Assembly (NCBI GenBank): GCA_028709235.1
Contig: JAQVXL010000007.1
Coordinates: 1 to 49,593, forward strand
Direction of reading: 5' to 3'
DNA length: 49,593 nucleotides
Source: Desulfotomaculaceae bacterium
Lineage (GTDB): Bacteria > Bacillota > Desulfotomaculia > Desulfotomaculales > Pelotomaculaceae
Within the stretch, counting starts at the first letter, position 1. Each line of letters begins with the position of its first letter. The notes under the pieces are model-generated. The model was not told the DNA's origin. It did not search any database and saw nothing but the letters and a program-made list of their open reading frames with translations. Of this stretch, positions 35,456 through 49,141 are shown in pieces. The position numbers and the translations under genes are program-made.

Positions 35456-37423
35456 TTACTTGTGGAAGAATTCGTATACAGCCTGGGCAGACTTTTTGGT
35501 CATGCCCTTCACTGCGGCCAGCTGTTCCGGGGTAGCCTTTTCAATTTCCCGCAGGGAGCCGAAAGCTTTTAACAACGAGCGGCGGCGCACCTCACCGATA
35601 CCTTCCACCTCGTCCAACAGAGATTTCAAGCCGGCTTTGCCCCTGATATTGCGGTGGTAAGCCAGAGCGAAGCGGTGGGCTTCATCCCGCAAGCGCTGCA
35701 GCAGGTGCAGGGCTGGAGACTCTCTATTAATCACAATGGGGGCGGACCGGCCTTCGGCAAATATCTGCTCCTCCTCTTTGGCCAGGCCAAAGGCTGGTAT
35801 ATGGGAGAACCCCAGTTCCCGCATCACATGGCGGGCAGCGGAAAGCTGCCCTTTGCCCCCGTCTATAATAACAAGGTCGGGCAGTGTGAAGAATTTAGCC
35901 TCCTTGCTTGAAATCAAGCCGGAATTAAAAAGCTCCTGTTCCTCGGCTGCTCTCTTAAAGCGCCTGCGCAGGGCTTCCTGCATCGAGGCGAAATCATCAG
36001 GCCCCTCAACCGTGCGGATCTTGAAGCGGCGGTACTGTTCATTAGCGGGTTTACCGTCGACAAAGACGACCATCGAAGCGACGCTGTTGACCCCCTGGGT
36101 GTTGGATATGTCATAACACTCCATGCGGTGGGGCGGTCCTGCCAGACCCAGTTCCTCCGCCAGGCCGGCCAGCGCCTCAGCCGTATCTTCCCGGCGCGCC
36201 GCCTCCTCCGAAAGGCGCTGCTCCAGTGTCAGCTGGGCGTTAGCGGCCACCATATCAACCAGCCTTTTCTTATCACCGCGCCGGGGCGTCTTCAAAGTTG
36301 CCTTAGAGCCCCTTTTGCCGGTCAGCCACTGTTCGATCACAACCCGCTCATCTTCTACCTCCACAGCAAGAAGCACTTCTCTGGGCACAAAATCAACATC
36401 CGTGTAATACTGCTTGAGAAATGAAGTGATTACTTCCGGCAGGCCGAGGTCTGCCACCCCACGCAGCATAAAGCGCTCCCGGCCGATAAGCTTGCCGCCT
36501 CGCACAAAAAATACCATGACGCAAGCCTCGTCCAGTTCCCCGGCCCCGGCGGCGGCCACCACGTCCTGATCCTCAAAGCCGCCGGTGATAATCTTTTGTC
36601 GCTCAACCACATCCCGCACAGCCTGCAGTTGGTCGCGCAGGCGGGCGGCAAGCTCAAAATCCAGGGCCTCCGCCGCCTCTTCCATCCGTGCAGCCAGCCG
36701 TTTGACCAGGTCTTCCTGTCTTCCTTCCAGGAATAGACATATCTCGTTGATCATTGTACGGTACCTGTCGCTGTCTACCTCACCGGCGCAAGGCCCGAGG
36801 CAGCGCTTGATATGGTAATTAAGACACGGCCTCTGCCTTAAAGGTGGCTCCTTTTGCTTGCAAGAACGGAAGGGGAAAATTTTTTTCAAAAGGCGCAGCG
36901 TCTCATTCACCGCCCCGACCCTGGTATAAGGGCCAAAGTACCTGGAGCCGTCTTTGACATGGCGGCGGGTGATCATGACCCGCGGAAAATTATCCGCCAC
37001 CGTCACCTTCAGATAAGGATAGCTTTTATCATCCTTGTACATGACATTGTAACGGGGGCGGTGCTCCTTGATCAGGTTCTGCTCAAGAATCAGCGCCTCT
37101 ACTTCCGAGTCGGTCACAATAATATCAAAGTCAGCCACTTTCCCCAGCATCACCTTTGTTTTCGGCGGCTGCTGGGCTCCCGGCTGAAAATAAGAGCGAA
37201 CCCTGTTCTTAAGCGAAAGGGCCTTGCCAACATAAATAATTTTTCCCTTGTCATCCCGGTAAAGGTAAACCCCCGGCCTGGCCGGCAGGAGTTTCAGTTT
37301 TTCTTCCAGCTGCAATTCAACGCACCGCTTTCCCAGTGCAGCAGGGGGACGGCTTGAGACCTGAAAAAGGCCTGTTTTTTGATTTTTCATGTCCGCAGAC
37401 CTGCGTTTTATGATCGGCGCCAC
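35456..37423 (-). CDS. uvrC: UvrABC excinuclease subunit C
   Basis: UvrC makes both incisions in nucleotide excision repair. The order is: GIY-YIG domain (about 50-130, 'PGVYLYRDDKGKIIYVGKA', 'LKNRVRSYF', 'EVEALILEQNLIKEHRPRYN'), UVR motif ('ELAARLRDQLQAVRDVV'), the RNase H-like domain ('RMECYDISNTQGVNSVASM') and a C-terminal helix-hairpin-helix pair ('DEVEGIGEVRRRSLLKAFG', 'TPEQLAAVKGMTKKSAQ'). The N-terminus is about 35 residues longer than usual. Residues 23-30 are encoded by a REP-like repeat, so translation may really begin at an in-frame TTG near residue 37. It is downstream of uvrA. Confidence 0.95.
   Translation of the reverse strand: MAPIIKRRSADMKNQKTGLFQVSSRPPAALGKRCVELQLEEKLKLLPARPGVYLYRDDKGKIIYVGKALSLKNRVRSYFQPGAQQPPKTKVMLGKVADFDIIVTDSEVEALILEQNLIKEHRPRYNVMYKDDKSYPYLKVTVADNFPRVMITRRHVKDGSRYFGPYTRVGAVNETLRLLKKIFPFRSCKQKEPPLRQRPCLNYHIKRCLGPCAGEVDSDRYRTMINEICLFLEGRQEDLVKRLAARMEEAAEALDFELAARLRDQLQAVRDVVERQKIITGGFEDQDVVAAAGAGELDEACVMVFFVRGGKLIGRERFMLRGVADLGLPEVITSFLKQYYTDVDFVPREVLLAVEVEDERVVIEQWLTGKRGSKATLKTPRRGDKKRLVDMVAANAQLTLEQRLSEEAARREDTAEALAGLAEELGLAGPPHRMECYDISNTQGVNSVASMVVFVDGKPANEQYRRFKIRTVEGPDDFASMQEALRRRFKRAAEEQELFNSGLISSKEAKFFTLPDLVIIDGGKGQLSAARHVMRELGFSHIPAFGLAKEEEQIFAEGRSAPIVINRESPALHLLQRLRDEAHRFALAYHRNIRGKAGLKSLLDEVEGIGEVRRRSLLKAFGSLREIEKATPEQLAAVKGMTKKSAQAVYEFFHK
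37336..37356 (-). repeat. REP-like element F in the uvrC 5' region
   Basis: The minus strand reads CAAGCCGTCCCCCTGCTGCAC, close to the minus-strand motif of element A. It overlaps codons 23-30 of the longest uvrC frame. Confidence 0.5.
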
Positions 37424-37647: not shown

Positions 37648-40461
37648 TCACTTGAGTACCTTTTGCAAAAACATGCCGGTATATGAGCCCGGTACCGAGG
37701 CTACTTCCTCCGGCGTGCCGGTAGCCAGCACCTGCCCGCCGTTGTTGCCGCCCTCCGGGCCCAGGTCAATAATATAGTCGGCTGTCTTGATTACATCCAG
37801 ATTATGTTCGATGACCACAACGGTATCGCCCGCTTCAACCAGCCGGTGCAGCACTCTAAGAAGCCTGTCGATATCGGCCGTATGCAGACCGGTGGTCGGT
37901 TCGTCAAGGATATAGAAGGTCTTGCCATTGGACCTTCTGGATAATTCAGTCGAAAGCTTGACCCGCTGGGCCTCGCCCCCGGAAAGTGTTGGCGCCGGCT
38001 GCCCCAGGCGGACATATCCCAGGCCTACATCCTGTAGTGTCTTCAGCTTGCGGTATATCTTGGGTATCGGGCTGAAAAAATCCACCGCCTGGTCCACGGT
38101 CAATCCCAACACGTCGGCAATATTTTTTCCCTTATACCTGACCTCAAGTGTTTCCCTGTTGTAACGCAGGCCTTTACATATCTCGCAGGGCACATAGACG
38201 TCCGGCAGGAAATGCATCTCTATTTTTATGATCCCGTCCCCGCGGCATGACTCGCAGCGCCCGCCTTTGACGTTGAAGCTGAAGCGCCCGGGCTTATAAC
38301 CGCGCATCTTGGACTCCGGTGTTTGCGCGAACAAGTCCCGGATGTCATTAAACACGCCTGTGTAGGTGGCCGGGTTGGAACGCGGCGTCCGGCCGATGGG
38401 AGACTGATCGACATCGATTACCTTGTCCAGCTGTTCGATACCGCGGACACCCCGGTTTTCCCCGGGTGGAGTTTTCGCCCGGTGCAGTTCCTGGGCCAGC
38501 TTGCGGTGTAGAATGTCGTTCACCAGGGTGCTTTTGCCCGAGCCCGACACACCGGTAACACAGATGAACACTCCCAGGGGAAAAGCGACATCTATATTTT
38601 TTAAATTGTTTTCGGCCGCGCCCAGGACTTCCACTGCCCTGCCATTTAACGGGCGGCGGCATTGCGGCACGGGTATGGACAATTTGCCGCTCAGGTACTG
38701 GCCGGTGATCGAATCCGGGTTTTGCGCGATATCTTTATAAGTGCCAGTTGCGACCACCCGGCCGCCGTGCTCACCCGCGCCGGGACCGATATCTATAATA
38801 TGGTCGGCTGCCAGCATGGTGTCCTCATCATGCTCTACCACGATCAGCGTGTTCCCCTGGTCGCGCAGGTGTTCCAGCGTCTTGAGCAGGCGCTGGTTGT
38901 CACGCTGGTGCAGGCCGATGCTGGGTTCGTCCAGGATATACAGGACCCCCATCAGGCCGGAGCCGATCTGGGTGGCCAGCCTGATCCGCTGGGCCTCACC
39001 GCCGGCCAGGGTGCCCGCGCTCCGGCCCAGGGTCAGGTAATCCAGGCCGACATTGACCAGGAAGCCCAGGCGCTCGTTGATCTCCTTTAAAATCTGCCTG
39101 GCTATAATCTGCTCCCGGCTGGTCAACTCAAGCTCACTAAAGAAATTTTTCGCATCAAGCACGGAAAACCAGCTGACCTCGGATATGGACAGCCCCCCCA
39201 CCTTCACCGCCAGGGCCTCGGGTTTGAGTCTGGCGCCCTGGCAGGAGGGACACACCCGGCTGCTCATATACTCCTCGATTTCCTCGCGCTGACGCTCGGA
39301 GCTGGTCTCCCGGTAGCGCCTGGTCAGATTGTTGATTACCCCTTCAAAGGGCCCATACTTCTCATGCCTGCGCTTATGGAAACCATTTTGCAGAATAAAG
39401 TGAAGACGCTGGCCACGGCTGCCGTACAAAATTACATCCAGTTGTTCCGGGGTAAGCCTGTCCAGCGGCGTATCCACACTGAAGCCGTAATGCCCGGCCA
39501 GCCCCTCCAGGAACTGGTAGTAATATCCCCCTTTGGGCCAGGCCTCTACAGCGCCCTGCGCTATCGATTTGCGCCGGTCCGGAATTACCAGATCGGGGTC
39601 GATTACTCTCTTGAACCCCAGGCCGGTGCACTCCGGACAGGCGCCGTAAGGGGTGTTAAATGAAAAAAGACGCGGTGAGATTTCGGCGATGCTGATCCCA
39701 CAGTCCACGCAGGCAAAATTTTCGCTGAAGATAATTTCTTCACCGCCGGTCACAGCTGCCGTCACCACACCTTCGCCCAGTTTCAGCGCTGTTTCCAGGG
39801 AGTCGGCCAGCCTCCTTTCGATGCCCGGGCGTATAATTATACGGTCCACCACTATTTCGATGGTGTGTTTTTTGTTTTTATTCAACTTGATGTCTTCGGA
39901 AGCGTCCAGCACCTCGCCGTTTACCCTGACCCGGACGAAGCCGCTGCGGCGGATATGCTCAAGAACCTTGACGTGCTCGCCTTTTCTCCCCTGCACCGCG
40001 GGCGAAAGGATCTGGAGCCTGGCGCCTTCCGGCAGGGATATCAAATGGTCCACCATCTGCTCCACCGCCTGGCGGGTAATCAACCTGCCGCAGCGGGGAC
40101 AGTGCGGCCGCCCGGTCCTGGCGAAAAGCAGGCGGAGGTAGTCATAAATCTCCGTCACTGTGCCCACCGTGGAGCGGGGGTTGTGGCTGGTTGTCCTCTG
40201 ATCTATGGAAATAGCCGGGGAAAGGCCTTCGATGTAATCCACATCCGGCTTGTCCATTTGGCCTAAAAACTGGCGGGCATACGCGGAGAGCGACTCCACG
40301 TACCGGCGCTGGCCCTCGGCGTAGATGGTGTCAAAAGCCAGGGAAGACTTGCCCGACCCGGACAGGCCCGTAATAACCACGAACTTATCCCGGGGGATCT
40401 CCACATCTATATTTTTCAGGTTATGGGCGCGGGCGCCCTTGACTAAAATTTTGTCAAGCAT
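37648..40461 (-). CDS. uvrA: UvrABC excinuclease subunit A
   Basis: UvrA is the damage-sensing ABC-type ATPase of excision repair. The 937 residues hold two ABC modules: Walker A '[17 protein letters not shown]' near the N-terminus and '[18 protein letters not shown]' after residue 600. Signature motifs are '[17 protein letters not shown]' and '[14 protein letters not shown]'. Zinc-finger cysteines appear in 'CPRCG', 'CPSCQ' and 'CESCRGDG'. It is 137 bp downstream of the small GIY-YIG-like gene and upstream of uvrC. uvrB is not in the window. Confidence 0.97.
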
Positions 40462-40557: not shown

Positions 40558-40581
40558 AATCCCACTTCTAGAAGTGGGATT
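40558..40581. repeat. Perfect 24-bp palindrome
   Basis: AATCCCACTTCT and AGAAGTGGGATT are perfect mirror arms (40558-40569, 40570-40581). In RNA this is a ten-base stem with a CTAG loop. It lies between uvrA and the GIY-YIG-like gene and could be a terminator of the latter. It also resembles the subterminal hairpins of IS200/IS605-type elements, so it may be a relic. Confidence 0.55.
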
Positions 40582-40598: not shown

Positions 40599-40898
40599 TT
40601 AGTTATTGGCGGGTTGGTATCTCTCCAGCCAATACTTCTCTAAACCGGCTGCAGCGTGTTCTGATGCGGCAACATACCAGGCGCACATCAAGGCGCCGGC
40701 AGCCTTCCCCTGGCTAATGGCGGATTTCATCTCATCCAGCAGGCTGGCGCAGGCCCGGCCAACGTATTTAACCTCTAACCGATCACAAACAAAAACAAAA
40801 ACACCTTGTTGGTCAGGAGCCGACAGGTCATCCAGGTCCAACCAGCCATCGTACTCTATAATCCGGTTATCCTTTTCATCACCCAACTGCCACTTCAT
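40599..40898 (-). CDS. Small GIY-YIG-like protein next to uvrA
   Basis: I do not know a named family for this 99-residue protein, but its C-terminal 70 residues read like a GIY-YIG domain. 'QGVFVFVCDRLEVKYVGRA' (31-49) corresponds to the GIY...YIG strands. 'SEHAAAGLEKYWLERYQPAN' (79-98) corresponds to the segment carrying the catalytic Glu and Asn. The uvrC protein in this same window has the parallel stretch 'SEVEALILEQNLIKEHRPRY'. The catalytic Arg expected after YVG is missing ('ACASLLDEMKSAI'), so it may be inactive or only structural. The start is the ATG at 40898 with GAGGTGGG upstream. It is the first gene before uvrA and uvrC. Confidence 0.65.
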   Translation of the reverse strand: MKWQLGDEKDNRIIEYDGWLDLDDLSAPDQQGVFVFVCDRLEVKYVGRACASLLDEMKSAISQGKAAGALMCAWYVAASEHAAAGLEKYWLERYQPANN

Positions 40899-41103
40899 GG
40901 CAACCCACCTCGTCAATAAACTTGGAATAGAAAAGCAACTCATTACATTTGACATATTTTAAACCGGTTTTGTTCCATTTTTTTTAATAATCTTGCATAT
41001 TTCGCGAGGTGTTTGTTTTCAGCCATTAACTAACAGTATCTGATGCGTCCCTGGGCAAAGGGACTTTATTTGGAATAAGTTAATAGTTTGTCAAAGCCTG
41101 TCA

Positions 41104-41176: not shown

Positions 41177-41326
41177 ATGAAAACAAAATTTAAGGCAACT
41201 GTACCCTTGCAGGTAAGATTGCCTTTAGATATTCGCCAAAAGCTTGAAGTGGCCAAGGAGGAAACCGGCAAAAGCCTGAACGCGTTGATTGTGGAAGCAA
41301 TTAAAGAGTATCTTAAAGATGCTTAA
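41177..41326 (+). CDS. Small Arc/CopG-like ribbon-helix-helix protein
   Basis: This 49-residue protein is one of the few plus-strand genes. It reads 'FKATVPLQVRLPLDIRQKLE', a beta strand plus first helix, then 'EETGKSLNALIVEAIKEYL', the second helix. This is the ribbon-helix-helix fold of Arc, CopG and many antitoxins. GAGAGGAGG ends about six bases before the ATG, giving a strong ribosome-binding site. No toxin or partner follows: the next 130 bp are non-coding and the next gene is on the other strand. It could be an orphan autoregulator acting on the two upstream palindromes, or a relic of a plasmid or toxin-antitoxin module. Confidence 0.75.
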   Translation: MKTKFKATVPLQVRLPLDIRQKLEVAKEETGKSLNALIVEAIKEYLKDA

Positions 41327-41456: not shown

Positions 41457-42290
41457 TCAGAACCTGGAGGGGCGACTGTCACCCATTATTTGTTGTTCCT
41501 CTGGAGTTAATTTTTTGCTTAAACAAATATTTTCTAATACAGCAAGATCTTCATAGGTATATTTTGAACTATATTTATTTAAAATTTCATTTGTTAACCT
41601 GGCTATACCTCTTTGTTCATAGGAGTATTTTGTGTCCCAGGTGATTATAAAAAATTGTTTGGAAACTAATTCGCGTAGTTTGTACCACCTAATTTTATTT
41701 AGGTAAGTATTTTCATATTCAATATCTGCTTCCAGGTGTCTCCAATCCAAGACGGTCTTTTGAGTATCTGTTAGTTCTCCTTCCAGTTCATTTACATTAT
41801 ATGGCCCTTGATGGTGGCCATCCCAACCATAAAAATTATGATGACTAAAGAAAAAGTATCCGCCAGGGACAAGGACACGGTATATTTCTTTAAAAGTTTC
41901 TTCTGGATTGGGTAGATGTTCTGTCACGGTAACCGCTATAGCTAAGTCAAAGGTCTCATCTTGGAATTGCATGTCGTCTGCAGACATCATTTGGTATGAA
42001 ATTAGATTCGGATACTTTTTTATTAACGTTTTTCTGTAGGAATGTATCGTTTTTGCCCAGTCATCGTTTTGCGGATTAAATACTTCCGCATTGCTATCAA
42101 TGCCAGTATAGCTGGAAACACCGGCTTGGACCAGGGCATAGGCAAAAAGGGAATTCCCGCAGCCTACATCTAATATACGTTTACCTTTAAGGTTATGGTG
42201 GTAAGGAAGGTATGTCTGCACCCAACCGCAGTCGGTCCATTGCGGGTAGTTGCCTAAGAAATCCAAAAGTTCGGCATATTTTTTTCTCAT
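41457..42290 (-). CDS. Class I SAM-dependent methyltransferase
   Basis: The enzyme has about 277 residues from the ATG at 42290 (GGGGAT upstream). A longer frame reaches 42407 but shows no ribosome-binding site. Motif I is 'RILDVGCGNSLFAYALVQAG', followed by 'YTGIDSN', 'DETFDLAIAVTVTEHLPNP' and 'EIYRVLVPGGYFFFSHHNFY'. It is AT-rich compared with the neighbouring glycosyltransferase gene. It is the last gene of the second glycan locus, so it may methylate a glycan or a precursor; the acceptor is unknown. The stop lies close to a GGTGACAGTCGCCC sequence like the palindrome near 660. Confidence 0.82.
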   Translation of the reverse strand: MRKKYAELLDFLGNYPQWTDCGWVQTYLPYHHNLKGKRILDVGCGNSLFAYALVQAGVSSYTGIDSNAEVFNPQNDDWAKTIHSYRKTLIKKYPNLISYQMMSADDMQFQDETFDLAIAVTVTEHLPNPEETFKEIYRVLVPGGYFFFSHHNFYGWDGHHQGPYNVNELEGELTDTQKTVLDWRHLEADIEYENTYLNKIRWYKLRELVSKQFFIITWDTKYSYEQRGIARLTNEILNKYSSKYTYEDLAVLENICLSKKLTPEEQQIMGDSRPSRF

Positions 42291-42541
42291 AAGTTTATCC
42301 CCTATGAAACAGTATTGGTCAAATCCATGGAAAGTACCCGCTATAAAAGCCCTTGCATTAATATGTTCGATGATGAAAAGGGTAACCTGACCAAACTTTA
42401 TAGTCATTTAACAAAATAAACAGGTCCAAGATCCGGCCAAGGCCTGGAAAAACCATCCATTCCGCTTCGCTCAAGGCACAAAACGCTATGAAATTATTGG
42501 CAAGTGCCAATGGTTTTGCAAACATATGCGAAAAGCAAGTT

Positions 42542-44626
42542 TCAACTGAGCAAGTGGTCATACAACTTCACGTAGGACCTGGCCATTCTTTCACCGGAAA
42601 ACTTCTCAAGGACACTGGCCCGGCAGTTTTGTTTAAGCTGCTCAAGCTGCCCCGGTTGGCTCAACAATCTTTCCAATACGGCACAAAGAGCGTTAAGATC
42701 TCCCTTGGGCACCAGGTGGCCGTTTACTCCCTCCTGCACTACTTCCGCCAGATTGCCCACATTGGTGGCCACTACCGGCGCCCCGCAAGAGAGGGCTTCC
42801 AGCACTATCATCGGCAAGCCTTCCGCGTCAGAGGTCAAAACCAGTAGATCTATAGTGCGCAGCACCTGGGCGGTATCAACACACGCGCCCATAAAACGCA
42901 CCTGGGCTTGATGGTCTGCAGCAACTGTTTGCATCTCCGCTTCCAAGATGCCATCACCATAACAGAACCATTCTACACCCTTGAGATTTTGCAGCCGGCC
43001 GGCAGCCTTAATAAATAACAAGGGGTTTTTTTCCTTGGACAGGCGGCCGATATAGGCCACCCGAGCGGTTCCCCCGGCCTGACTATTTTGCGCTGCCACC
43101 GCTGTCCGATCAGCCTCGCCGGGCTTGAACCGCTCCTGGTTAACCCCGTTGGGGATGATGTGAATCTTCTCTTCCGCTAAACCAAACTTTTCGAGCAGGG
43201 TATTTTTGATCCCGCCATGCACCACTATATGTCCGCTCAGATAACGGTCCATTTGCGCGCTTAATTTGGCGTAACCTTCCGGGGTGTCATTATGCAATAA
43301 ATCCAGGATCGGCAAAGCGGGGGCAACTTTTCTGATGCCTTCCAGGCTCAGGTAGGCCAGCTCAGAATGGGAGTTCAGTATAGCGTCGATGGCATGAGCC
43401 GTGACAAAGGAATTTAGATAATCAATGAAATACCTTCTGCGGAACAGGTGGGGCAGGATAAATATATGCGGGGTTACCGCAAGAAAAAGGTCCAGCCACT
43501 CATTGGCTGAATCCAGAGTGGTGACCAGGTAGACCTGCCAATGTTTTGAAGCGCTAAAAGCTTTCAGCACTTGCAGCAGCACTGTTTCAGCGCCACCCAC
43601 CTTCAACCAGGGCACCAGCACCAGAAGGCGCCGCTGACCGACCAGGCCGGGGGCGCCCGTGAAGTTCAAAAAAGCCTGTTCCGGCCGCACTTCCACTCCA
43701 GGCAAGCGCTTCACCCTGGCTACACGCGCGTGCTTTTTAAGCAGCTCATCTTTTAATTGCCCGTGCTTTTCTTGCGCGCTGTGGGTCATGGTTTTTCCAT
43801 GACGGCGGTGCTTAAAAAGCGGCTCGCGGATCAGGTAACCGCCGTAGCCTTCACCTGCCAGCCTCAGCCAAAAATCCCAATCTTCGTAGCCAATCCGCAT
43901 GCTTTCATCATAGCCGCCCACCTTTTCCCAAATGGCGCGGCGATACACCGCTACTACAGGTATGTGATTGTACTGCAAGAGCTTGCCGGGATCAAGTGGT
44001 TCGGTGTACCAGATCTCCTCAAAATCGCCAAATAGCTGGGCCAGGGGGTAAGCCAGGCCCAAATCGGGTCTTGTCTCCAGTACCATCACCGCTTTTTCCA
44101 GGTAGGTGGGGTCGATCAGGTCGTCAGCATCCAGGCAGGTGATATAGCGGGCGTTGGTGGCCCGGATACCTGTATTGCGGGCTGCGGAAAGACCTTTGTT
44201 AGGCTGGCGGATCAGCTTCACCGAGCTGTTGAGCGCCAGTTCATCCAAAAGCTTAATCGTTAAAGGATCATTGGAACCATCATCAACCACAATGATCTCG
44301 ATATTCCCCAAGGTCTGGTTTTGCGCGCTCTCTATAGCCTCCGGCAAATATTTGCCGTAATTGTAACAAGGGATAATCACAGCTGCCAGGGGATCTCCAG
44401 GCGGCAGAGGGCTCTGTTCGACCAGGGCAAACACGGGTTCCTGTTTTTGGCGCAGGTATTCCTTGATTTGCGAGGGGACAGCGCGCTTCAGACTGCGCCA
44501 CCATGAACTCTGGGCCACGGTAAAACGCGCCTGGTTGGCCACTTTAGTCAGCATTATCGTCACGCCGTCCCGCCGGGTTACCTGGATCACCTTGCGCAAG
44601 CCCCTGGCAGTTCTATTTCCCGACAC
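42542..44626 (-). CDS. Two-domain glycosyltransferase, GT2 then GT4
   Basis: The 694-residue protein fuses a GT2 domain (about 78-300: 'AAVIIPCYNYGKYLPEAIES', 'IEIIVVDDGSNDP', 'RYITCLDADDLIDP') to a GT4 domain (about 333-690: 'LLVLVPWLKVGGAETVLLQV', 'HIIPNGVNQERFKPGE', 'RVAYIGRLSKEKNPLLFIKA', 'DAEGLPMIVLEALSCGAPVV'). Each domain could add one sugar, making a disaccharide unit by one protein. It is separated by 16 bp from the 776-residue protein, which has the opposite domain order. The GTG start has GGAG upstream. Confidence 0.9.
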   Translation of the reverse strand: MSGNRTARGLRKVIQVTRRDGVTIMLTKVANQARFTVAQSSWWRSLKRAVPSQIKEYLRQKQEPVFALVEQSPLPPGDPLAAVIIPCYNYGKYLPEAIESAQNQTLGNIEIIVVDDGSNDPLTIKLLDELALNSSVKLIRQPNKGLSAARNTGIRATNARYITCLDADDLIDPTYLEKAVMVLETRPDLGLAYPLAQLFGDFEEIWYTEPLDPGKLLQYNHIPVVAVYRRAIWEKVGGYDESMRIGYEDWDFWLRLAGEGYGGYLIREPLFKHRRHGKTMTHSAQEKHGQLKDELLKKHARVARVKRLPGVEVRPEQAFLNFTGAPGLVGQRRLLVLVPWLKVGGAETVLLQVLKAFSASKHWQVYLVTTLDSANEWLDLFLAVTPHIFILPHLFRRRYFIDYLNSFVTAHAIDAILNSHSELAYLSLEGIRKVAPALPILDLLHNDTPEGYAKLSAQMDRYLSGHIVVHGGIKNTLLEKFGLAEEKIHIIPNGVNQERFKPGEADRTAVAAQNSQAGGTARVAYIGRLSKEKNPLLFIKAAGRLQNLKGVEWFCYGDGILEAEMQTVAADHQAQVRFMGACVDTAQVLRTIDLLVLTSDAEGLPMIVLEALSCGAPVVATNVGNLAEVVQEGVNGHLVPKGDLNALCAVLERLLSQPGQLEQLKQNCRASVLEKFSGERMARSYVKLYDHLLS

Positions 44627-44642
44627 CTATCAACACTCCATT

Positions 44643-46973
44643 TCAGCTATCTTTTTGCGAGATTATTTGCCTGGTTTTTCTGATTAAACCGAATCCCAAT
44701 CCTTTGAGAGAGGTTTTCAAGCCCAGGTTGGCCGGATCCTGCAAGCGCTGTTCCGCCCACTCCAATGCGGCCACTCTTTCCCTCAGATATTGCAGCGCTT
44801 CATTATCTTGAGCTTGATCTTTTACTTTTAATGCCTGCTCCACCCACTCAAGACGCCTTTCCGCGCTCTGCCAGTCCGCAACAGGCGAATTCCAGGCAAA
44901 AGAAGCGCCGTTGGCATTCAACAACCGGAATAATTCGTCCCCGTATCTTTGATACGCCGCAGGATGCAGGCGGACGATTTCATCGTGCATAAAGAGGATC
45001 TGGTTGTCATTCATGCTTCTGAACATGGAATCGGCCCGGACCCGGTAACGCGCCAGCAGCTCCGGAATACACACACCCAGCCGTCCGGACTCATAGAGGG
45101 AGATCCAGCTTTCATAGTCCTCCATACCGTAGGACATACGTGGTTTATTGACGGCATATGACAGGAAATCTGCCCGTTTGAGCACACAAATTACCGCAGC
45201 AAGATTATGGGCCAGGAGAAAAGGGAATTCCAGGTTGTTGGCGATAAAACACCCCTGCGCCGCTTCGAAATAACGCAGCCAGGAATATACCAGCGAAACA
45301 TTGTCATATCTTTTCAGAACATCGATACAACGGCTGAAAAAGTCCTTTTCCACCATGTCGTCAGCATCGAGGAAGGCCAGGTATTCGCCTTTAGCCTGTT
45401 CGGCGCCAAAATTTCGCACAGCGGCCAGTCCCCTGTTTTCAATGTGTACAACCCTGACCTCAGCTATACCGGCCGACTCGATTTCCAGCAGCTTGTCCAG
45501 ACTGGACAGCTCATTACTGCCGTCGTTGATGATTAGTATTTCTATCGGGCGGTACGTATTATTTAAAGCGCTTTGCAGCGCGTCGTCAATATAACTGCCC
45601 ATATTGTAGTAAGGGATGACCACAGAAAGCAGACCCGGCGCACTAACCAACTCCACTCGGGGGGCCGGGGGCAAAACCGGCGGCTCGTATTGATTTACCG
45701 AAGGAAATATCCTTCCCGCCCCTGTCTGTGCCCTCATCTCTTGATAAATGCTCATCCTGGTGGCCAGAACATTTTCATAGGCTGTTAACCGGCTAATCCT
45801 GGCTTTAGCCCTGGCCCCGAGCGCTTGATTTTCAGCAGGAGTTAACCTCAGCGCTTTCTTCACGCATTGCTCCATCGAGCCGGGCTTCGTCCAATCAAAG
45901 ACGTAACCGCATTCTCCATCGACAACCATCTCACCTTGACCGCCCGCAGTTGAGGCGAGCACTGTTTTCCCCGCGTGCATGGCCTCTATGCAGGTCAGCG
46001 GAAAGTTGTCGTACAGTGAAGGGACCAGGACAGCCCAGGCCTGCGCTACCTGCCGGGCACATTGTTCCGGGGGGAGATTGCCGGTGAACTCCAGCCGCCC
46101 GGCCTTAATCCACTGCTCATAACGTCGGCGCGCATATTCACCGACCGTGGTGCCTTTGGCGTAAAGCTCTGTGTCGCCCCCCACCAGCACCAGCTTAAAT
46201 TGTTCTCCTGCCTGCCACAAGCGCTCACAGCCGGCCAGCAAAGGCAGTGTGCCCTTGCAAAGCTGCAGCCGCCCCACACAAACAAGGACTTTTTGCGGCG
46301 CCGGCAGGTTGTTTCCCGGCACAGCCCGCGCCTGATACGGCAGCGGCAAGACGTCAATATTCAGCTTGCCTTGCCCGTCATGAATTCTTTGCCGCACCCG
46401 GCGTTTTAAAAATTGGCTGGGGCAAATAAGCCTGTCGGCAGCTACCAGGCAAAATTTTTCCATCTGTCCCACCCAGTATTCAGGCAGCCTGCTGGATGGG
46501 TACTGGTTTTCAGGCAGCAGCTCAAATGTTGGGGCATGCAGGTGCACCAGCACCGGCAGTCCGGCCAGTTCAGGATAGCCCACCAACTTCTGCTGCAAGA
46601 GGTAATAGCCAATGCCGCCGTAATCCTGGGTCTCAATGATATCGGGCGGCCCTTCCCGGGCGGTAAATTCCCTTACTATTGCTGCAAATTGCCAGCTTAA
46701 CGCCGGCCAGTAGGACATGACGTTAAAGGGAAAGGCCGGGTGGTCGTCCGGCTCCGGGCCCGGGGGCGCTGCCTCCGGAGTGTCCAACCCTGAACGGAAC
46801 CTCACTAACCTGACCCGCTCCGCCGGCCGCTCCTCGCTATTGACCTGGTCTGGGATAAATACAGTCACTTCATGCCCGGCGCCCGCAAACATTTGAGCCG
46901 CGTGCTGCATGTATGTGCCAATACCTCCACCGTAAAAAGGGGGGTACTCAGTTGTTAGAAACCAGAGCTTCAC
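44643..46973 (-). CDS. Two-domain glycosyltransferase, GT4 then GT2
   Basis: The 776-residue protein begins with a GT4 domain (about 1-415: 'FLTTEYPPFYGGGIGTYMQH', 'VLVCVGRLQLCKGTLPLLAG', 'LYDNFPLTCIEAMHAGKTVL'). A GT2 domain follows (about 447-700: 'LLSVVIPYYNMGSYIDDALQ', 'IEILIINDGSNE', 'GEYLAFLDADDMVEKDFFSR'). A helical tail of about 70 residues ends in 'RKTRQIISQKDS'. The order is the reverse of that of the 694-residue neighbour. The two probably act one after the other on the same glycan. The hydrophobic surface patches usual for peripheral membrane association are possible; no membrane span is seen. Confidence 0.9.
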   Translation of the reverse strand: MKLWFLTTEYPPFYGGGIGTYMQHAAQMFAGAGHEVTVFIPDQVNSEERPAERVRLVRFRSGLDTPEAAPPGPEPDDHPAFPFNVMSYWPALSWQFAAIVREFTAREGPPDIIETQDYGGIGYYLLQQKLVGYPELAGLPVLVHLHAPTFELLPENQYPSSRLPEYWVGQMEKFCLVAADRLICPSQFLKRRVRQRIHDGQGKLNIDVLPLPYQARAVPGNNLPAPQKVLVCVGRLQLCKGTLPLLAGCERLWQAGEQFKLVLVGGDTELYAKGTTVGEYARRRYEQWIKAGRLEFTGNLPPEQCARQVAQAWAVLVPSLYDNFPLTCIEAMHAGKTVLASTAGGQGEMVVDGECGYVFDWTKPGSMEQCVKKALRLTPAENQALGARAKARISRLTAYENVLATRMSIYQEMRAQTGAGRIFPSVNQYEPPVLPPAPRVELVSAPGLLSVVIPYYNMGSYIDDALQSALNNTYRPIEILIINDGSNELSSLDKLLEIESAGIAEVRVVHIENRGLAAVRNFGAEQAKGEYLAFLDADDMVEKDFFSRCIDVLKRYDNVSLVYSWLRYFEAAQGCFIANNLEFPFLLAHNLAAVICVLKRADFLSYAVNKPRMSYGMEDYESWISLYESGRLGVCIPELLARYRVRADSMFRSMNDNQILFMHDEIVRLHPAAYQRYGDELFRLLNANGASFAWNSPVADWQSAERRLEWVEQALKVKDQAQDNEALQYLRERVAALEWAEQRLQDPANLGLKTSLKGLGFGLIRKTRQIISQKDS

Positions 46974-47040
46974 GCATAAAACCTCCCGTATGGTTGAATG
47001 GCTCTCGCCGTTGGCTCACAGGCTAAAAACATAACTATTA

Positions 47041-48138
47041 TTATTTTTTGTTATCCCTATTTCTCACAATAACATTCCTGACCGGCTTTAAAATCTTGCC
47101 CGCCGGCGAGCTATCTATCAAGTGGCGGTACTTTTGCAGCAATTGCCAGGTGTGGGAGGAATGAATACCGGCCAGGACCTGTTGCAGCGCAGCAACATTT
47201 TGGGTTAAAGCAGTGTTTTCTTGAGCCAGTGCTGCAATGGATTGGTCCTTTTCCCGCGCTGCAACCGCCAGCTCATCCACTTCTGCTTCCAGTTCCCGGA
47301 TAAGCCGGCAGGCATTGGCCGCTTCTCCTTCCAGTTCCCGGATATGTTGATCTTTTTCCTCCGCCGCCTGGGTCAGGAGGTCATTTTTCTGCCAGATCAC
47401 CTCCAGGGGCTTTCTTGATATATCGTAACAGATACTTGACTCTGCAATACCGGCGTATTTTTTCTTATTGCGGCAAAAAGCAATCATATAGAGGTGCAAT
47501 CTCATGGGTTGCTCAGTTGCCGAAGAAGTTCCATCGTTGCAGGCAATTCTGTATTCGCCGGGCGATTTCTGCAGCGGGTTCTGAGCCAAAGGCCAGGTCA
47601 GGCTGGCCAGGTTGATTTCCTGCAGGGAGATACTGACCCAGGCAAATTCTTTTTTCAGCAAGGCTTCAAACTCTTCCAGGTAAAACTCCTTGATATGGTA
47701 GGGATTCTTGTCCCGGAAGCTGTCCGTCCTGTGCTTGTCCGGAGTTGAGATGATAAACAAGCCTGCCGGGCTCAATACCCTTTTGACCTCACGTAAAAAT
47801 GTCCGCTGGTCTTGTTCGGCCAAATGCTCTATGGTTTCAAAGGAAAAGATCATATCAAAGGCCGCGTCCTCAAAGGGTATTTGATCAGCGGCTCCTGCAA
47901 TATAGGTTAAATTATCCCGCCTATATTTCTTTTTTGCCCTTTCGATAACCTGATAATCGATATCCATACCGACTGTTGTTCTGGCATATTGAGCAACAAA
48001 AAAAGAACTATAGCCGTCGCCGCAGGCCAGGTCCAGGACCCTTTTACCCCGCGCATATTTAGCGGCAATAAAGTAGCGGTGCCAATGAAATAATAACTCT
48101 ATATAATCATCTGAGGAAGGTGATAATCTTTCCTCCAC
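47041..48138 (-). CDS. SAM methyltransferase fused to a long coiled coil
   Basis: Residues 1-200 form a class I methyltransferase: 'RVLDLACGDGYSSFFVAQYA', 'TVGMDIDYQVIERAKKKY', 'FDMIFSFETIEHLAEQDQR' and 'EVKRVLSPAGLFIISTPDKH'. Residues about 235-320 are a heptad-rich coiled coil of Glu, Leu and Ala. A 45-residue tail follows, 'HTWQLLQKYRHLIDSSPAGK', of the sort found in clostridial glycosyltransferases. The layout recalls chain-capping methyltransferases whose coiled coil measures polymer length (WbdD type), but the sequence is not obviously WbdD. It is the first gene of the second glycan locus. Confidence 0.82.
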   Translation of the reverse strand: MEERLSPSSDDYIELLFHWHRYFIAAKYARGKRVLDLACGDGYSSFFVAQYARTTVGMDIDYQVIERAKKKYRRDNLTYIAGAADQIPFEDAAFDMIFSFETIEHLAEQDQRTFLREVKRVLSPAGLFIISTPDKHRTDSFRDKNPYHIKEFYLEEFEALLKKEFAWVSISLQEINLASLTWPLAQNPLQKSPGEYRIACNDGTSSATEQPMRLHLYMIAFCRNKKKYAGIAESSICYDISRKPLEVIWQKNDLLTQAAEEKDQHIRELEGEAANACRLIRELEAEVDELAVAAREKDQSIAALAQENTALTQNVAALQQVLAGIHSSHTWQLLQKYRHLIDSSPAGKILKPVRNVIVRNRDNKK

Positions 48139-48382: not shown

Positions 48383-49141
48383 TTATATTGTTCGTATCAC
48401 CCCGAAACTAATACCGGTTAGCCGCTCAATTTGCCTGATAGACAGGCCCTTGGCCTTACACTCTTTGATAGCTTCATTACGTTTTTCTTTTTCAAAACGC
48501 TGCACCTCTGTTGGACTTTGGACACCGGATATACTCCTGATAAAATTGCTAGCCTCAGTATCATTTAGCCTGGCATCTTGATCATAGTCTAGGCATCGAT
48601 CCTGGTTCTCCGCCGAATTGAATTCCTTAAACATTTTTATTGCATTTACCCTGTTGGTCGTAAAAAGATTAAGACAGAATTGAACATCGCAAATTCTTGG
48701 TTCTCCAACATATTCCCCATAGCTGCTCCATGGATAACCGGCTATGTTTTTTACAATACCGGCCTTATATGGGTTTTGGTGAATGTAGCGAAGCACCGTT
48801 AAAAAATAGCTATCCGTTTCAACTGCCTCACTTTTATAGCGAGCCTGGAACAAATGACCCCGGCGGCCATATTTCCAGTTATACCAGTACACGTAACTGG
48901 CCCCAATCCTTCTAAATACTATCCCCAGGTCTTCCGTGACCTCCTTTAACAATAAATGAATATGATTACTCATTAGACAGTAAGCATATATTTCATAGCC
49001 GCTTTTCTCTTTGATATCTTTTATTGTCCACAGAAACTTTTGATAATCCTCATCATCCTCAAATATGATTTGACGGTTAATACCCCTTAACATCACATGA
49101 TAAATCCCTGTATGACTTTTCCTTCTAGCAGTCCTTACCAT
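48383..49141 (-). CDS. REP-associated tyrosine transposase (RAYT, Y1/IS200-like)
   Basis: The 252-residue protein belongs to the single-domain HUH nuclease group that handles REP sequences. It shows 'YHVMLRGINRQIIFEDDEDY', the HUH histidines in 'YAYCLMSNHIHLLLKE' (H60, H62) and the helix with the catalytic tyrosine, 'LRYIHQNPYKAGIV' (Y119). It ends with a helix-turn-helix-like region, 'GLSIRQIERLTGISFGVIRT'. It appears intact. A copy of the 19-bp repeat and an array of four 23-bp repeats lie just upstream. It probably recognises the REP-like repeats scattered over the window. That link is inference. Confidence 0.9.
   Translation of the reverse strand: MVRTARRKSHTGIYHVMLRGINRQIIFEDDEDYQKFLWTIKDIKEKSGYEIYAYCLMSNHIHLLLKEVTEDLGIVFRRIGASYVYWYNWKYGRRGHLFQARYKSEAVETDSYFLTVLRYIHQNPYKAGIVKNIAGYPWSSYGEYVGEPRICDVQFCLNLFTTNRVNAIKMFKEFNSAENQDRCLDYDQDARLNDTEASNFIRSISGVQSPTEVQRFEKEKRNEAIKECKAKGLSIRQIERLTGISFGVIRTI

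Follow-up and report, generated by a model that had tools for sequence, protein, structure and literature searches.

A 99-residue UvrC-type GIY-YIG protein lacking nuclease residues beside uvrA in a Desulfotomaculaceae bacterium, at the edge of an apparent surface-glycan island

A GIY-YIG protein is commonly taken to be a nuclease. In the window, the whole stretch of 49,593 nucleotides that was analysed, a small GIY-YIG-like gene lies on the minus strand and reads from an ATG at 40898 to a stop ending at 40599. It lies on the same strand as uvrA, 138 bp upstream of it. The features of interest are as follows.

35456-37423, minus strand: full-length UvrC of the window, with a GIY-YIG domain and further UvrC parts
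37046-37276, minus strand: GIY-YIG domain of this UvrC (residues 50-126), the comparison domain
37648-40461, minus strand: uvrA; homology with the upstream DNA of relatives reaches only to about 40472, 11 bp upstream of the ATG
40558-40581, minus strand: perfect 24-bp palindrome AATCCCACTTCTAGAAGTGGGATT, between the small gene and uvrA
40599-40898, minus strand: predicted catalytically degenerate UvrC-type GIY-YIG protein, 99 residues, with the domain at residues 27-99 or so and a conserved acidic N-terminal arm (1-22)
40905-40911, minus strand: ribosome-binding-like GAGGTGG, 5' of the small-gene ATG; GAGGT is kept in 3 of 3 family members
41177-41326, plus strand: ribbon-helix-helix (CopG-type) protein, 49 residues, divergent from the small gene
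41457-48138, minus strand: two methyltransferases and two double-domain glycosyltransferases, the latter with 68-70% homologues downstream of the Pelotomaculum propionicicum orthologue
48383-49141, minus strand: IS200-like transposase (Y1_Tnp, REP-associated type), with a 56% homologue directly upstream of the P. propionicicum orthologue

The 99-residue frame described in the earlier note proved to be exact, and the gene real. Two orthologues were found among the genomes searched, in P. propionicicum (62%) and Desulfocucumis palustris (59%). All three members start with MKWQLGDE and are nearly equal in length; a 118-residue reading from 40955 was rejected, since the homologues start at the inner ATG. 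Between members dN is about 0.28-0.32 while dS is at or near saturation, so the small gene is a genuine protein-coding gene under purifying selection. Over residues 1-22, dN is about 0.09-0.10 and every pair of members shares 18-19 identities. Pairwise identities of 60, 58 and 61 of 98 residues make the three members equidistant, though two of them share a taxonomic family. At all three loci the gene is a single-gene unit, set off by gaps of over 100 bp from the genes around it. The distribution of the protein family is patchy: of the 113 class genomes, 3 held a strong match to its profile, and the small gene was missing in each of the other five genomes from the genus and, within the taxonomic family, in every other genome but one. 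No relative of the small protein turned up in close searches of phage, plasmid and IMG/VR sequences; a Rhodococcus phage match (31%, E 0.08) was dropped as weak and devoid of a Pfam domain.

A profile built on the three members (window, P. propionicicum and D. palustris) matched, in the 113 class genomes, the three orthologues and then 18 frames of 611-679 residues in 18 genomes. In 398 genomes of the phylum, every match except the small gene itself lay in long frames (431-895 residues, nearly all 600-690; best E 6.3e-6). All of the 35 long-frame loci that were checked encode UvrC, aligning with most of the window's UvrC. Moreover, hhalign of the family against 39 UvrC N-termini gave a probability of 97% over residues 26-99. 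At the sequence level, the likeness of the small protein to the UvrC GIY-YIG domain is thus beyond chance. The likeness to the window's UvrC that the earlier note had seen is borne out by this profile search, which reached only UvrC-sized frames beyond the orthologues, by hhalign and by the structural comparisons below.

AlphaFold2, given three sequences only, yielded five models spanning pLDDT 54 to 85, the one used having a mean pLDDT of 85 and a pTM of 0.78. Its predicted fold is GIY-YIG: strands at residues 32-37 and 43-49, a helix at 53-62, a third strand at 71-77 and a C-terminal helix at 80-94 follow the order of that fold, and the GIY and YIG motifs are present as GVF and YVG in all three members, as had been read from the window copy. 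The model adds an N-terminal strand (13-21), and the tip of the arm (residues 1-10) has a pLDDT of 57. In a PDB fold search with this model, ranks 1-9 were all GIY-YIG domains of Thermotoga or Bacillus UvrC (probability 1.00, TM 0.60-0.70), restriction GIY-YIG enzymes ranking lower. A search of viral models found mainly GIY-YIG proteins, general GIY-YIG endonucleases, with target-normalised TM-scores below those of the UvrC structures. PDB sequence matches to luciferase/ligase over residues 8-51 (E>0.08) were treated as chance, as were weak NCBIfam CoA-ligase matches in the same stretch.

No family in Pfam, NCBIfam, PHROGs or PADLOC scored above cut-off for the small protein. Its sole, and thus best, Pfam match as a single sequence was DUF7508 (PF24348), at 18 bits, over residues 26-83/87 (E 0.0028; 2.4e-4 for an orthologue). 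The gathering score of this model, 26 bits, was not reached by the members (18.2, 21.7 and 12.2 bits), and the window's UvrC matches the same model about as well as the small protein does. Among the papers searched, none mentioned DUF7508.

Seven positions (Y, Y, K, R, Y, E and N, in this order) are invariant in 39 of 39 UvrCs and served as the reference for the active site; residues of the family are given in the order window/P. propionicicum/D. palustris. The first-motif Tyr is replaced throughout (F/F/F) and the second Tyr is kept (Y/Y/Y). The Lys is R/C/S, and the central catalytic Arg has become Glu in every member (E/E/E), so that the missing Arg of the earlier note holds for the whole family. 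The third Tyr is A/A/A, the C-terminal catalytic Glu is E/K/S and the Asn is N/N/C. The window copy thus keeps Tyr45, Glu87 and Asn99; the Glu/Asn segment that had been described is present in it but is not a feature of the family. From these residues the family is predicted to have lost GIY-YIG catalysis. The three small proteins are also acidic (pI 4.5-4.7, net charge -5 to -6), the N-terminal domains of UvrCs being basic (pI 8.0-9.9, net +1 to +9). Together, residue loss and acidity would speak against both cleavage and simple DNA binding. The suggestion of a DNA-binding remnant is weakened by the family-wide acidity and the strong purifying selection, although some nucleic-acid contact is still compatible with them.

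Compared with the N-terminal GIY-YIG domain of UvrC (PF01541; PDB 1ycz, 1yd6), the small family has the same fold, strand-helix order and SL motif, and shares the GVF/GVY...YVG pair and the S...A...P..N C-terminal segment. It differs in 6 of the 7 active-site positions, which are changed or not conserved among its members, in a shorter helix-strand loop, in its acidity and extra N-terminal arm, and in being a 99-residue single-domain protein that lacks the UVR motif, the RNase H-like domain and HhH. Small UvrC-lineage proteins have been described before: in the sections available of a 2006 superfamily survey (PMC1564403), the Bacillus-II UvrC-like subfamily is a UvrC-derived domain with only an N-terminal extension, which by description resembles the small family; loss of catalytic residues is not reported there for Bacillus-II (PMC1564403). 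The survey also assigns COG1833 and COG3680, as predicted nucleases, to the UvrC+ lineage, and states that published GIY-YIG superfamily trees are unreliable (PMC1564403). Prokaryotic Slx1-like proteins, COG1833 and COG3680 are also small GIY-YIG proteins, but predicted nucleases; none was recognised among the matches to the family profile, which are long UvrC-sized frames. The small family differs from the UvrC-lineage forms of the survey in catalytic loss, acidity and neighbourhood.

The position of the gene beside uvrA had been taken as the head of a uvrA-uvrC group. As a position on the contig this stands; as a conserved arrangement it does not, since the contigs or stretches that carry the two orthologues have no uvr genes and no conserved uvrA/B/C neighbourhood was found. 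In 10 of the 10 relatives with enough upstream sequence, P. propionicicum included, the gene directly 5' of uvrA is uvrB. In the window genome, a draft of 129 contigs, uvrB lies on contig C1, apart from the uvrA contig C17. Homology to relatives breaks on C1 at the uvrB 3' end (about 18141, L071); the genes beyond it encode a surface protein bearing copper-amine-oxidase-N domains and then an ABC exporter pair (ATPase assigned by Pfam, permease by reading). The breaks at uvrB and uvrA enclose 18 kb on C1 and 9 kb on C17, and a single insertion is therefore the simplest account; a misassembled contig would require two wrong joins, one on C1 after uvrB and one on C17 before uvrA, and is thus the less simple explanation. 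Inferred from two contigs that are not spanned, one island of at least 27 kb, carrying surface-glycan and surface-protein genes, is strongly indicated to have been inserted in the uvrB-uvrA spacer, C1 and C17 being unjoined. On the same two contigs, the small gene would sit at the uvrA edge of this island. The uvrB and uvrA genes, adjoining in ten relatives, thus appear split here by a surface-glycan island. The adjacency of the small gene to uvrA is probably an accident of the inserted sugar-gene block.

The palindrome at 40558-40581 is the sole exact copy in the genome, which holds one further copy with 3 mismatches. A 73-nt stretch over this region could form an RNA stem (-15.6 kcal/mol, z -2.1), without a classic T run; the palindrome was not listed in the terminator scan, and Rfam found no RNA family in the region. 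It is possible that it marks the transcript end of the small gene. Separately, short palindromic repeats with a GGGGACGGTTCTC-like sequence or its complement were observed at L050 600-1090, L004 4880-5000 and L071 around 18000, that is in uvrB-uvrA spacers and beside an orthologue. Repeats of this type would be expected of REP elements that IS200-like transposases mobilise.

In P. propionicicum, an IS200-like transposase and a secreted subtilase come before the orthologue and glycosyltransferases after it; in D. palustris, the orthologue is flanked by a Big_2 surface protein on one side and a 1796-residue SLH protein on the other. These neighbourhoods suggest an association of the family with surface and glycan loci, seen at three loci and without a base rate. 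Ribbon-helix-helix (CopG/Arc-like) genes were also observed in glycosyltransferase clusters on the strand opposite the cluster, at 41177-41326 (+) in the window and at L074:14899-15132 (-) in P. propionicicum.

Taken as a whole, we consider it somewhat probable that the small protein is a dead UvrC-type domain that persists as a folded binding protein, an adaptor or regulator placed at uvrA by the island and working outside excision repair. According to this proposal, the stand-alone domain would have survived without its nuclease residues, and insertion of the island into the uvrB-uvrA spacer would have carried its gene beside uvrA. The protein, small, acidic and made from a monocistronic gene, would use its flexible N-terminal arm (MKWQLGDE...YDGWLDL), together with what was once the active-site face, to bind a partner. 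The near-invariant arm has the look of a segment for partner binding, and reuse of this face is suggested by the unvarying Glu where the Arg once stood. Judging from the three neighbourhoods, the protein perhaps acts on the expression or assembly of the accompanying surface loci. A bolder version, that the three proteins found a new non-cutting GIY-YIG family, formerly UvrC, of regulatory or anti-nuclease binders (acidic, possibly DNA-mimicking or nuclease-capping) on surface-glycan islands, is doubtful.

Other explanations account for part of these data. The patchy distribution, the equidistance of the three members, which suggests transfer, and the transposase that lies immediately upstream in P. 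propionicicum and, within the same gene run, at a distance of 7.5 kb here would fit an accessory of the islands' mobile elements (the IS200-like, REP-associated transposase) that binds nucleic acid or mimics DNA. The link is weakened, however, because each genome holds 3-8 transposases of this kind; besides, the D. palustris stretch examined has none and the two transposases found close to the gene are no more than 56% alike. We regard such an accessory as unlikely. Still more unlikely is a modulator of UvrABC, in which the dead domain would compete with UvrC or cap it at the UvrB-DNA complex. The UvrC GIY-YIG domain as nearest relative and the place of the gene just upstream of uvrA, on its strand, speak for this possibility, but the orthologues lie away from uvr genes, most relatives that retain uvrABC lack the gene, a palindrome with stem-forming potential separates it from uvrA, and the strong negative charge is unlike that of a DNA-bound competitor. 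Since it is probably only through insertion of the island that the gene lies beside uvrA, a DNA-repair regulator is unlikely. Thus, of the earlier interpretation, the stand-alone degenerate UvrC-type domain without Arg is retained; the incision regulator and the UvrA partner are not, given that neither orthologue has a uvr neighbourhood, an outcome that the earlier note had itself named as refuting, and that relatives carry uvrB 5' of uvrA.

Two further readings turn on the active site itself. The retained Tyr45, together with Glu87 and Asn99 in the window copy, might belong to a nuclease with a rearranged site by analogy to the unusual one of R.Hpy188I, and unusual active sites have been reported in the superfamily (PMC2630997). 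Yet Glu87 is Lys or Ser in the orthologues, Asn99 is Cys in one of them, the Arg is Glu in all three and the overall charge is negative, which makes such an enzyme very improbable. Conversely, the lost catalytic residues and the single domain could be those of a decaying, functionless UvrC remnant, but the frame is intact with a start conserved in three genera, purifying selection is strong and the near-invariant N-terminal arm is not found in the UvrC domain; this last reading we find hardly credible.

If the proposed adaptor or regulator is correct, the small protein would be a clear case of a UvrC incision domain that was freed, stripped of catalysis and kept by selection for another role. 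It would also serve as a warning that a gene next to uvrA is not thereby a repair gene, as the neighbourhood here looks accidental.
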